DNA of 64,000 nt from assembly GCF_002095575.1 (NCBI RefSeq), contig NZ_MLJJ01000015.1, positions 1 to 64,000 on the forward strand. Direction: 5' to 3'. Below, in pieces: positions 376 through 18,203 of the stretch (position 1 is the first letter of the stretch; each line of letters begins with the position of its first letter). A model generated the notes under the pieces. The model had not been told where the DNA came from and searched no databases. It was given only the letters and a program-made list of their open reading frames with translations. Source of the stretch: Pantoea septica (lineage in GTDB: Bacteria; Pseudomonadota; Gammaproteobacteria; Enterobacterales; Enterobacteriaceae). The translations under genes were made by a program, and so were the position numbers.

Positions 376-600
376 ATGAGCGATGAAGAATTTGTTACCT
401 CGCACGACACGCTAAAGCTGGCCGACGAAGTCGCCTGTCTGAAAATGATGGTGACGCTGATTCTGAAAGGAATGGGCCAGGCGGATGCCGGCAAAGTGAT
501 TATTAATATGGAACGCTACGTGAAGACTCTGGGTGATAAGCCGCAGGCGGAAGTGTTTAGCAATACCATCAAACAGATTAAAACCGCGTATCGTCAGTGA
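376..600 (+). CDS. yecF: YecF family small cytoplasmic protein (DUF2594)
   Basis: This 74-residue protein begins MSDEEFVTSHDTLKLADEV and matches the YecF (DUF2594) family of Enterobacterales over its full length. The function is unknown. It has no signal peptide or membrane segment and reads as a small, mostly helical, soluble protein. The start is supported by AGGAG 8 bases upstream (365-369). In E. coli yecF is the neighbour of sdiA. Here it converges on luxI, with the sdiA-type gene just beyond, so the old yecF-sdiA neighbourhood is kept with luxI inserted or retained between them. Confidence 0.9.
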   Translation: MSDEEFVTSHDTLKLADEVACLKMMVTLILKGMGQADAGKVIINMERYVKTLGDKPQAEVFSNTIKQIKTAYRQ

Positions 601-634: not shown

Positions 635-1249
635 TCAGGTGTGCGACTGCCAGTTGACAGAGACGCCCAGTGACGGCAACACCTCTTCCGGGCTGAAGCG
701 CCGCGTGCCGCGATACTTTTCCGCCAGCGCCGGCTGCGCCACTGGAATGCGAATGGCGAACAGGTTGTCTTCCGACTGAATCAAGCCCGGCGTGAGCGGC
801 TCATAGGCGACCTGGTGATCCTCAAACATCTTCTCCAGCATCGGCGTCGCCGAGCTAATCAAATACTCCATGCCGTTGAGTTCAGCGAGCTGTACTGCGT
901 GCCATAAGAGGTTGAACGGCAGTTCCGCGTCCACTTCCAGCTTCGCCGAGAAGCGCGACATCTCCCACACTTTTTCATGACTGAACGGCACCACCAGCCC
1001 TTCGCTCTGGGCGGGTTCATGCCACGGCATCAGCCGCGCGCAGCCGCTAATGCCCTCGCGCGCACTCCATGCCAGTAGCCAGGTGACATCCGAACGATCG
1101 AAACGGTCATACTCCTGACCCGGCGTGCTGAGACGCGGCGGAATCGACCAACCTTCTCCACGCGCAAATACGCTATAACGGTAGCTGCCTAACTCGGCCA
1201 GCAGAGAGGACGGCATATCCTTTAACTGGGTTTGAATTATCTTCATCAT
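635..1249 (-). CDS. Acyl-homoserine-lactone synthase, LuxI family (PhzI/ExpI-like)
   Basis: LuxI-type synthases make N-acyl-homoserine lactones from S-adenosylmethionine and an acyl-ACP in the cytoplasm. The 204-residue protein has the usual family length and the invariant pattern: R and F in the early YRYSVFARGEGW segment with W just after, the acidic EYDRFD motif, R in SGCARLMP, and E and R in WEMSRFS. Two in-frame ATGs (1249 and 1246) follow AGGGGC; the first is used here. It is transcribed in the same direction as the sdiA-type gene upstream, 119 bases away, and the spacer holds a perfect 20-bp lux-box-like palindrome, so positive autoinduction is likely. The acyl chain it makes cannot be read from sequence. 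The tie to the sdiA locus points to the PhzI/ExpI branch rather than EsaI. Confidence 0.92.
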   Translation of the reverse strand: MMKIIQTQLKDMPSSLLAELGSYRYSVFARGEGWSIPPRLSTPGQEYDRFDRSDVTWLLAWSAREGISGCARLMPWHEPAQSEGLVVPFSHEKVWEMSRFSAKLEVDAELPFNLLWHAVQLAELNGMEYLISSATPMLEKMFEDHQVAYEPLTPGLIQSEDNLFAIRIPVAQPALAEKYRGTRRFSPEEVLPSLGVSVNWQSHT

Positions 1250-1340
1250 GCGCCCCTGACATCCTCATGTTTGCACTGATTTACGCTACGCCAGCCTGGC
1301 AAAGTCCCGGCGCAGGGTAGACAACTGCTTGCGGCAACGT

Positions 1341-1360
1341 AACTACTAAATTTAGTAGTT
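1341..1360. promoter_or_regulatory. Perfect 20-bp lux-box-like palindrome upstream of luxI
   Basis: AACTACTAAA is followed directly by its exact reverse complement TTTAGTAGTT. Length, symmetry and position (92 bases before the luxI ATG, 8 bases after the sdiA-type stop) fit a lux box bound by a LuxR-type dimer. It resembles the CTAC...GTAG layout of phz boxes. Confidence 0.75.
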
Positions 1361-1368
1361 GCCTTTTT

Positions 1369-2091
1369 CTATATCAGACCAATTGCCGCCGCATAACAGG
1401 CAATTTGGGTTTTATTGGAAACATTAAATCGCTTTTGCATATTCTTTTGGTGAAAATTTACCGTATGCTGCGAAATGGCTAAAATAAGCGAAATTTCAGC
1501 CGAAGTTTTGCCCTCGGCCGTCCATTTCAAAATCTCCAGCTCACGCTGGCTGAAATCATTTTTTAGCACCATTAGCGCATCATCGGAAAAACGCTGGAGC
1601 GCACGCAAACTCAGCTCCGCCAGAAAGTGCAGTTTCACTTCCAGCTCGGTGTGCAAATCCTGCGTCTTGCTTGCCAGGCGAGATGCTATAGATAATATAC
1701 CAATGGCGCGATTTGACGCCATCGCGGAGCAGGAAAATCCGCTGTTTAGCCCATATTCCTGCGCCTCTTTCCACAAATCGCCGGCCCCAGCGAAGATGTC
1801 GTCCGTCCACTCCAGCCCTCGTCCCGGCTGCTGGCAAAGCAATAACACCGGATCGACGGCGTAGTAGTTTTTTTCCTCATAGCGTTTCATCCAGGCTTTT
1901 GGATAAGTGTGATGCAAAAAAAGGCGCGGTCGGGTAAAAGGCACAGGATGCTGAATCAAAAAGGAATAGCTATCGAACCCTAATGACACTACCTGTGTCT
2001 GAATGAGCGTCTTCAATTCTTCAGTTGAAGCGAGGGCCTGAAATTCTTTTTCCGTCTCTCGGCGCCAGACGAAATAATTTTCGTTAGTCAT
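1369..2091 (-). CDS. sdiA: SdiA-type LuxR family quorum-sensing regulator
   Basis: This 240-residue protein is the same length as E. coli SdiA and resembles it at both ends. Residues ~1-170 are an autoinducer-binding domain (HPVPFTRP, then the WxxYxxxxYxxxDPV-like segment KRYEEKNYYAVDPV). Residues ~175-240 are a LuxR helix-turn-helix with EGKTSAEISLILAIS, TVNFHQKNMQK and the terminal CYAAAIGLI. GAGG precedes the start. In E. coli SdiA has no synthase of its own and senses other species' AHLs. Here a luxI lies directly downstream on the same strand, so this copy probably has a cognate signal and binds the palindrome in between. In Pantoea and Erwinia the equivalent gene has been called phzR. 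Direct orthology to SdiA is inferred from recalled sequence and from the yecF neighbour. Confidence 0.88.
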   Translation of the reverse strand: MTNENYFVWRRETEKEFQALASTEELKTLIQTQVVSLGFDSYSFLIQHPVPFTRPRLFLHHTYPKAWMKRYEEKNYYAVDPVLLLCQQPGRGLEWTDDIFAGAGDLWKEAQEYGLNSGFSCSAMASNRAIGILSIASRLASKTQDLHTELEVKLHFLAELSLRALQRFSDDALMVLKNDFSQRELEILKWTAEGKTSAEISLILAISQHTVNFHQKNMQKRFNVSNKTQIACYAAAIGLI

Positions 2092-4306: not shown

Positions 4307-5701
4307 ATGGTTGATCAAATAAAAGAAGCCGTTGCTGAACAGGAGAATCCTGACAAGCTGCGGCGCAATCTGCATAACCGTCATATTCAGCTTATCGCCA
4401 TTGGCGGCGCCATCGGCACCGGGCTGTTTATGGGCTCCGGCAAAACCATCAGTCTGGCGGGTCCGTCGATCATTTTCGTTTACATGATCATCGGCTTTAT
4501 GCTCTTTTTTGTCATGCGCGCGATGGGCGAGCTGCTGCTCTCTAATCTGGAATACAAATCGTTCAGCGATTTCGCCGCCGATCTGCTCGGCCCCTGGGCG
4601 GGCTACTTTACCGGCTGGACCTACTGGTTCTGCTGGGTGGTGACCGGCATTGCCGACGTGGTGGCAATATCCGCCTATTTCCAGCTCTGGTTTCCCGGCT
4701 TTTCCGTATGGATGAGCGCCCTGCTGTGTGTCTTCGTCTTCCTTGCGCTAAATATCGCCACGGTGAAAATGTTCGGCGAGATGGAGTTCTGGTTCGCCAT
4801 CATTAAGATCGTCGCCATCGTGGCGCTGATTATCACCGGCATCGTGCTGGTGACTCTGCACTATCCGTCGCCAGGCGGCGGCACCGCGTCGCTGAGCAAT
4901 ATCTGGGATCACGGCGGCCTGTTCCCGAAAGGGCTGAGCGGCTTTTTCGCCGGTTTCCAGATTGCGGTGTTCGCCTTTGTCGGCATTGAGCTGGTCGGCA
5001 CGGCGGCGGCGGAAACGCACGATCCCCACAAGGTGCTGCCGCGCGCGATTAACGCCATTCCGCTGCGCGTCATTATGTTCTACGTGCTGGCGCTGATGGT
5101 GATCATGGCGGTCACCCCCTGGACGCAGGTGCTGGCGGATCGCAGCCCCTTTGTTGAGATGTTCGTACTGATTGGCCTGCCGGCTGCAGCCAGCATCGTG
5201 AACTTTGTGGTGCTGACCTCAGCGGCCTCTTCCGCCAACAGCGGCATCTTTTCCACCAGCCGTATGCTCTACGGCCTGTCGCAGCAGGGCGTGGCGCACC
5301 GCGCCTTTGGTCGACTCTCCGCGCGTGCGGTGCCGACTGCCGGTCTCTTTTTCTCCTGCCTCTGCCTGCTTGCAGGCGTCGCGCTGATTTATCTGATTCC
5401 AGACGTGATGACAGTATTCACCATGGTGACCACAGTGTCGGCGATCCTGTTTATGTTCGTCTGGACCATAATCCTGTGCAGCTATCTGGCCTACCGCAAG
5501 AAATATCCGGAGCGCCATGCGGCGTCGGGCTTTAAGATGCCGCTGGGCAAGTTCATGTGCTGGGTGGTGATGGCGTTCTTCGCCTTCGTGCTGGTGCTGC
5601 TGACGCTGCAGGAGGATACCCGTCAGGCGCTGATGGTCACGCCGCTGTGGTTTGTCATGCTGACCATGGGCTGGCTGCTGCGCCGTCGCGCTGCCCGTTA
5701 A
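4307..5701 (+). CDS. cycA: D-serine/D-alanine/glycine:H+ symporter CycA
   Basis: This 464-residue amino-acid permease of the APC family imports D-serine, D-alanine and glycine across the inner membrane. The N-terminal RRNLHNRHIQLIAIGGAIG and GLFMGSGKTISLAG motifs and long stretches such as VMRAMGELLLSNLEYKSF and GFFAGFQIAVFAFVGIEL are nearly identical to E. coli CycA, and about 12 membrane segments are visible. The ATG at 4307 gives MVDQIKEA, which matches the E. coli start MVDQVK; AGGA lies about 11 bases upstream. An in-frame ATG at 4229 is rejected. In E. coli cycA mRNA is a GcvB sRNA target; I did not map a pairing site here. Confidence 0.95.
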   Translation: MVDQIKEAVAEQENPDKLRRNLHNRHIQLIAIGGAIGTGLFMGSGKTISLAGPSIIFVYMIIGFMLFFVMRAMGELLLSNLEYKSFSDFAADLLGPWAGYFTGWTYWFCWVVTGIADVVAISAYFQLWFPGFSVWMSALLCVFVFLALNIATVKMFGEMEFWFAIIKIVAIVALIITGIVLVTLHYPSPGGGTASLSNIWDHGGLFPKGLSGFFAGFQIAVFAFVGIELVGTAAAETHDPHKVLPRAINAIPLRVIMFYVLALMVIMAVTPWTQVLADRSPFVEMFVLIGLPAAASIVNFVVLTSAASSANSGIFSTSRMLYGLSQQGVAHRAFGRLSARAVPTAGLFFSCLCLLAGVALIYLIPDVMTVFTMVTTVSAILFMFVWTIILCSYLAYRKKYPERHAASGFKMPLGKFMCWVVMAFFAFVLVLLTLQEDTRQALMVTPLWFVMLTMGWLLRRRAAR

Positions 5702-17960: not shown

Positions 17961-18048
17961 TGGCGGAGGAAGAGAGATTCGAACTCTCGGATGGTTTCCC
18001 ATCGGCGGTTTTCAAGACCGCTGCCTTAAGCCGCTCGGCCATCCCTCC
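17961..18048 (-). tRNA. serT: tRNA-Ser (anticodon UGA), copy 1
   Basis: The 88-nt gene reads GGAGGGATGGCCGAGCGG from its 5' end, has a CTTGAAA anticodon loop (UGA), a long variable arm (GATGGGAAACCATC), the T-arm GAGAGTTCGAATCTCTC and an encoded CCA. Acceptor pair 7:66 is A-U. In E. coli serT is a single gene next to yccA; here two copies lie in the same place. It is downstream of the second copy on the same transcript strand. Confidence 0.97.
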
Positions 18049-18115
18049 GGGGTGATGCTTTTCACATCGGCAAAACGACATTGCCGCATTGCCTCTTCCT
18101 GACTGAGCAGGAAAG

Positions 18116-18203
18116 TGGCGGAGGAGGAGAGATTCGAACTCTCGGATGGTTTCCCATCGGCGGTTTTCAAGACCGCTGCCTTAAGCCGCTCGGCCACCCC
18201 TCC
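18116..18203 (-). tRNA. serT: tRNA-Ser (anticodon UGA), copy 2
   Basis: This 88-nt gene is identical to the copy at 17961-18048 except at two bases. Those bases form acceptor pair 7:66, here G-C instead of A-U. Anticodon UGA, long variable arm and encoded CCA are all present. The two genes are 67 bases apart and probably come from one precursor. Confidence 0.97.

Follow-up and report, generated by a model that had tools for sequence, protein, structure and literature searches.

In Escherichia coli, the LuxR-type regulator SdiA works without a partner synthase, as an "eavesdropping" receptor, and the question of this eavesdropping by E. coli and Salmonella has the original SdiA signal at its root. 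Is there an SdiA that still stands beside its own signal synthase, and how would such a pair be wired? We addressed this question at the start of a 64,000-nucleotide stretch of Pantoea septica DNA (contig NZ_MLJJ01000015.1, our G000:C15; hereafter, the window), from an assembly of 4.31 Mb (89 contigs, 99.9% complete). Here, the open reading frame (ORF) list places an sdiA-type luxR gene first and, on the same strand after a 119-bp gap, a luxI-type gene, next to yecF. We consider it probable that these two genes represent the ancestral quorum-sensing pair of SdiA, retained in Pantoea, Erwinia, Mixta, and their kin, in which signal-bound SdiA would activate luxI and so establish positive feedback.

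The pair arrangement is already published, and the window is one more member. According to Sabag-Daigle and Ahmer (2012; PMC3474713), an SdiA-LuxI pair persists near sirA/uvrY as ExpR/ExpI in Erwinia and as PhzR/PhzI in Pantoea; they proposed a deletion of the synthase gene in E. coli and its kin, and a 2025 review (PMC12086679) restates this account. The text of PMC3474713 makes no mention of the operator, synthase subfamily, or sdiA losses reported below, and in search listings of the open-licence literature we found no prior description of the operator, of the subfamily, or of luxI being kept after sdiA loss. The features of the locus are as follows.

1369..2091, minus strand: sdiA (phzR/expR of Pantoea/Erwinia), a LuxR-type regulator with an autoinducer-binding domain and a GerE helix-turn-helix (HTH) domain (profiles, SdiA-clade tree, E. 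coli SdiA comparison).
1341..1360, no strand: perfect 20-bp palindrome AACTACTAAATTTAGTAGTT, the predicted SdiA operator (lux/phz-type box) of the luxI promoter (conservation, shuffles).
1314..1319, minus strand: TACCCT, the predicted -10 hexamer for luxI transcription, at 21 bp from the box (spacing kept across loci).
1250..1307, minus strand: predicted luxI 5' untranslated region, with Shine-Dalgarno sequence AGGGG at 1253-1257 (sequence; transcription start placed from the -10).
635..1249, minus strand: luxI-family synthase (phzI/expI of Pantoea/Erwinia), 204 amino acids (aa), start possibly at the second ATG, 1246 (profiles, fold, tree, residues).
376..600, plus strand: yecF (DUF2594), a conserved neighbor, convergent with luxI (profiles, compared loci).

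The regulator is an SdiA ortholog. As the initial annotation had described, it is a full-length SdiA-like protein of 240 aa that carries HPVPFTRP and ends in CYAAAIGLI. It scored 106 bits on the Autoind_bind profile and 69 bits on GerE, and its best solved relatives by sequence were SdiA chains, followed by RhlR. The top NCBIfam model was the SdiA equivalog NF007561, at 297 bits, below the 350-bit annotation cut-off; our guess is that this cut-off was perhaps set on solo SdiAs. In an unrooted LuxR tree of 57 proteins, the window regulator and 14 other paired SdiAs formed a clade (support, 100/97), and these paired SdiAs fell on one side together with 14 solo SdiAs, including that of E. coli (100/95). 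RhlR came next (100/98), and eight EsaR-type proteins of relatives ("EsaR-type" is a label of this analysis) lay far from the SdiA clade. Identity to E. coli SdiA was 49/69 residues in the HTH domain and 66/171 in the ligand domain. Y63, W67, Y71, D80, and W95, which line the ligand pocket, are retained. Part of the initial annotation was the literature idea that PhzI/ExpI descend from the lost SdiA synthase. That proposal does exist (PMC3474713), and luxI occupies the space at which E. coli has a 67-bp gap (order in E. coli: sdiA, gap, yecF, uvrY). Loss of a synthase by the solo SdiAs would be the simpler reading; because the tree is unrooted, it falls short of proof.

The second gene encodes an intact LuxI-family synthase, as first annotated, albeit a strongly diverged one. 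It scored 22 bits on Pfam Autoind_synth, under the curated 24-bit annotation cut-off; several synthases of relatives lie above it (e.g., 30.6 bits in G146), EsaI-type synthases reach 181 to 253 bits, and all 35 aligned subfamily members matched the profile at E ≤ 1 (best, 5.7e-7). The predicted fold (predicted local distance difference test score, 78) is that of an N-acyl homoserine lactone (AHL) synthase: the top 11 PDB rows were AHL synthases, the 11th being tied with a general GCN5-related N-acetyltransferase fold. TofI of Burkholderia glumae, ~30% identical, was both the nearest solved AHL synthase by sequence and first in Foldseek. In an alignment against 28 other LuxIs, the residues that never vary among those proteins, R24, F28, W34, E46, D48, D51, R72, E96, and R99, the catalytic ones included, were kept in 35/35 members (F28 in 34/35). 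Three near-universal LuxI residues are replaced: position 32 is E in 33/35 members and L in 27/28 other LuxIs, position 57 is W in 35/35 and Y in 28/28, and a G near 146, present in 28/28 other LuxIs, is absent from the subfamily. A LuxI tree (19 subfamily rows and 30 others, with RhlI and the G146 synthase left out) placed the subfamily, including the Pantoea and Erwinia luxI genes at the sdiA locus, in a single clade (100/100) apart from the EsaI type; its stem of 2.25 changes per column was the longest inner branch. Judged by sequence, it represents a LuxI subfamily of its own, with the catalytic residues retained. The fold was also considered as a guide to dependence on coenzyme A (CoA) or acyl carrier protein (ACP); because RpaI, TofI, BjaI, MesI, and LasI all lay within 1.3 Z, we make no claim on CoA versus ACP.

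Purifying selection on the synthase is strong. The median ratio of nonsynonymous to synonymous substitution rates (dN/dS) was 0.037 for luxI, similar to uvrY, and 0.121 for sdiA, i.e., luxI is ~3-fold more constrained than sdiA (36 loci of the genus set; pairs with dS of 0.1 to 1.5, namely, 185 luxI, 244 sdiA, and 548 uvrY pairs). Likewise, the regulator was more divergent than the synthase in 1,422 of 1,431 genome pairs, which are non-independent and derive from the 54 of 62 named loci with all four genes intact. In Mixta theicola, what had looked like an internal stop codon within the matched luxI proved to be the natural gene end. The luxI start is ambiguous between 1249 and 1246, residue 1 being non-Met in 7/35 aligned members and residue 2 in 2/35.

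Between the two genes, at 1341-1360, lies the perfect 20-bp palindrome AACTACTAAATTTAGTAGTT; as good a palindrome arose in 3 of 20,000 dinucleotide shuffles of the 119-bp gap. Of the 59 genomes of the genus that match luxI, 55 have the pattern ACTRCYANNNNTRGYAGT next to the gene, and the four genomes without it have variant boxes (G001, G059), both genes degraded (G041), or a broken sdiA (G044). Across 64 loci (63 named loci plus L259), a box with at most two mismatches was present at 55/56 loci with intact sdiA versus 2/8 without; the exceptions were Pantoea sp. 1.19 (sdiA intact, box off) and L119 and L140 (sdiA broken, box kept). TACCCT or a near variant follows at 21 bp from the box in 55/57 loci and at 22 bp in one, and in L171 a -10 was located at 21 bp by eye, outside the search word. 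With TACCCT as -12 to -7, the box covers -53 to -34 of the predicted transcription start, which would fit the lux-type geometry (box centered ~42 to 45 bp upstream of the start), the start itself being placed from the -10. Promoters activated from a box adjoining the -10 are named class II. The phz box of Pseudomonas chlororaphis spans -54 to -35 and is required for promoter activity (PMC5815613), and a phzR-phzI fragment of Pantoea eucalypti drives gfp above background (PMC4989142). We predict that the palindrome is the SdiA operator of luxI.

No box within two mismatches was found ahead of sdiA itself. In the window genome, the box at ≤1 mismatch occurs at 2 places (one exact) versus 45 for a reversed control pattern; because the two patterns are unlike in composition (the words CTA and TAG being rare), we claim no depletion. 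Across the 61 genomes of the genus, the strict pattern occurs at 13 further places beyond the locus, of which eight were inspected: G031 and G032 carry an extra box where a deaminase gene (PF00383) begins, G040 has one between the same flanking genes, and the other five were, by inspection only, taken as chance. Three related Pantoea have a second strong SdiA-type box in common, in L251 (2506), L252 (2547), and L253 (2542), at the deaminase start (PF00383) in two of them. This shared box is a possible clade-specific SdiA target.

How widely is the pair kept? Both the synthase and the regulator were matched in 59/61 genomes of the genus, and since each gene is found at this frequency their pairing is not a matter of chance: the sdiA-luxI pair is the rule in Pantoea and not special to this strain. 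G041 counts for both genes with degraded pieces only, the regulator is also broken in G044, and the two genomes with neither gene, G030 and G043, measure 2.9 and 1.4 Mb. (In G021 and G053, sdiA carries frameshifts near the C-terminus, perhaps sequencing errors.) In the family survey, the synthase subfamily (at least 59% identity) was present in 20/392 genomes, 16 of which also encode an SdiA at E ≤ 1e-30. The regulator matched at this threshold in 129 genomes; 108 of these hold SdiAs without this synthase, and five hold weaker LuxRs (31 to 34%). Within the eight synthase-bearing genera, no SdiA without the synthase was seen, all 16 SdiA-bearing genomes holding it.

A search of the whole window assembly revealed no second LuxI, no second LuxR with an autoinducer domain, and no separate esaI/esaR pair, whose possible presence had been raised by the initial annotation; its near relatives G004, G015, G022, and G034 likewise have one LuxI and one autoinducer-domain LuxR each. 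Among 15 relatives searched, EsaI/EsaR-type pairs lie on opposite strands and converge in 7/7 genomes bearing one, in agreement with the initial remark that the tandem order seen here differs from that layout, and two of the synthases converging with EsaR-type genes match EsaI in PDB (E, 5e-143 and 2e-66). Because the ancestral pair seems to be the sole LuxI/LuxR system of the strain, this strain would offer a clean background for identifying the signal, with the operator as a ready reporter.

Four of the 20 synthase-bearing genomes (G091, G124, G146, and G351) lack an SdiA at E ≤ 1e-30. Profile searches recovered only other LuxRs in them, elsewhere than the sdiA locus; G124, G146, and G351 also bear an EsaI/EsaR-type pair, and G091 only an EsaR-type LuxR. 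All four retain the order luxI-yecF-uvrY (for G351, uvrY was seen in its named copy, L165). At the level of loci with the synthase in place, sdiA is gone in L165, L174, L176, and L259 and decayed in L173 and L140; operator mismatches number 3 to 6 in L165, L174, L176, L259, and L173 and 1 in L140. E. psidii has a decayed sdiA, and in the stink-bug symbiont L140, sdiA contains four stops and luxI is intact (dN 0.015, dS 0.27 to P. brenneri). For the 4 rows of the LuxI tree in which luxI is kept without sdiA, 3 changes are required; two of the species concerned, E. endophytica and E. psidii, are sisters there. A tentative interpretation, which we regard as possible rather than likely, is that the native SdiA partner belongs to a LuxI subfamily of its own with a non-classical signal and that the signal is under stronger selection than the receptor; sdiA and the operator would then be lost, as in several Erwinia-group lineages, leaving a synthase whose product another receptor reads or which has another use. 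If so, a kept synthase without its receptor would mirror the case of E. coli, where the receptor stayed and the synthase did not. The lineages with luxI but no sdiA are natural experiments. In the type-B symbiont of Plautia stali (L178/L266), sdiA, luxI, yecF, uvrY, and their neighbors are degrading together.

The mechanism that we favor for the intact pair would run as follows. The synthase, as its fold and catalytic residues suggest, would turn S-adenosylmethionine and an acyl donor into a homoserine-lactone-type signal. SdiA dimers carrying the signal would bind the box (1341-1360), which lies at about -53 to -34 of the predicted start, and from there activate luxI over a weak -10 (TACCCT); activation of luxI would yield more signal, closing a positive feedback loop.

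ExpI and PhzI have been said to make N-(3-oxohexanoyl)-homoserine lactone (oxoC6), citing Venturi 2004 and Morohoshi 2007 (PMC3474713), which by title concern AHLs of E. amylovora and P. ananatis. The sdiA-locus synthase seems not to be the gene behind this published assignment. The gene of the P. ananatis study is reportedly eanI, of the EsaI type. Two observations temper the prediction of AHL production: the strong divergence of the synthase, and the finding that E. pyrifoliae, whose SdiA-linked synthase is 22% identical to P. chlororaphis PhzI and 17% to P. atrosepticum ExpI, was negative on two AHL biosensors, for which its authors proposed an unknown signal (PMC2827408). The synthase may have ceased to make a classical AHL and instead use another acyl donor, or make a lactone that standard biosensors miss, sensed by SdiA or another receptor; the long stem of the subfamily and the replacements at positions 32, 57, and 146 point the same way. 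We hold this to be the less likely course, given that the catalytic residues are kept and that membership of the E. pyrifoliae gene in the subfamily is only presumed, with RhlI absent from the tree. The two biosensors are also blind to some AHLs. In addition, the solo SdiA of Salmonella detects oxoC6 and its C8 counterpart oxoC8 best, so that a classical partner signal is plausible (PMC3474713). If the signal were unusual, oxoC6 and oxoC8 as the usual SdiA ligands would need reconsidering. That the gene matters is seen from mutants: in Pantoea eucalypti, symplasmata depend on phzI, as complementation confirmed (PMC4989142), and in P. ananatis, mutants of phzI and of eanI are susceptible to grazing (PMC4863597). 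Since phzI mutants have such phenotypes, the sdiA-locus synthase likely acts as a signal synthase.

The wiring admits other readings as well. SdiA might repress luxI from the box, with the signal relieving repression, as LuxR-type repressors such as EsaR exist (PMC10134790); this is improbable, given that the box lies upstream of the -10 at 21 bp, the activator position of the phz box, that it occupies the -35 place ahead of a weak -10 match, and that SdiA clusters with RhlR, apart from the EsaR type. The palindrome might instead be a transcription terminator hairpin, since on the plus strand a 10-pair stem is followed by CTTTTTC (5 such terminator-like sites in the window, 2.5 expected). We rejected this very unlikely reading: in the sdiA-luxI direction there is no T-run after the palindrome; the A-run on its other side is not conserved in Erwinia, whereas the palindrome is; pair 7/14 is non-complementary in 12 of 28 distinct boxes (6 C-A and 6 T-G, the latter a possible RNA wobble pair), a pattern to be expected if each half-site is read separately as CTRCYA; and the box decays upon loss of sdiA. 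Least credible of all, to the point of being negligible, is that luxI is a recent acquisition and a chance neighbor of sdiA. Nothing was found in its favor, the matches in 21 plasmid records all lying below 60% identity, and it is contradicted by conservation of the pair across the genus and several other genera, with the SdiAs of paired genomes forming one clade and the synthases another (100/100). 

Compared with known systems, the favored SdiA-LuxI pair has the same genes, order, and place between sdiA and yecF-uvrY as ExpR/ExpI of Erwinia and PhzR/PhzI of Pantoea at the sirA/uvrY locus, although no second, EsaI-type pair was found in the window genome. It shares ortholog and locus with the LuxR solo SdiA of E. 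coli and Salmonella, the HTH being far closer than the ligand domain, and differs in having its own synthase and a box ahead of it. Of the regulators in the tree that are not SdiAs, the closest is RhlR of the P. aeruginosa RhlR/RhlI system, compared on the regulator side only (39% identity to the window SdiA). A search across 274 genomes of the class gave no regulator above 36% outside the own genome, and plasmids gave none. The PhzR/PhzI system of phenazine-producing Pseudomonas is alike in operator sequence and in distance to the -10; the gene name shared with Pseudomonas PhzI stems from annotation. The SdiA-linked synthase of E. pyrifoliae is 22% identical to that PhzI, as noted above (PMC2827408). 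EsaI/EsaR of the Pantoea stewartii type have the LuxR/LuxI families in common with the window pair, but there the genes converge and both proteins belong to other clades. TofI is the nearest solved AHL synthase, but the B. glumae synthase of L307 belongs to a different clade and has different neighbors.

With respect to the surroundings, yecF adjoins luxI as initially annotated, and luxI of the relatives lies between sdiA and yecF-uvrY. uvrY follows yecF in P. piersonii and the other compared relatives; the window contig starts short of uvrY, and yecF alone is seen. The nearest match of the synthase, among 63 named loci found with it, is that of P. piersonii (98%), where luxI and yecF are 41 bp apart. 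This gap is 411 to 432 bp in Erwinia, Mixta, and Izhakiella loci (L150, L154, L162, and L171), and in L154 it contains a 112-aa hydrophobic ORF at 4621-4959 on the minus strand, converging. Elsewhere in the window, two tandem tRNA-Ser(TGA) genes are located at 17961-18203.
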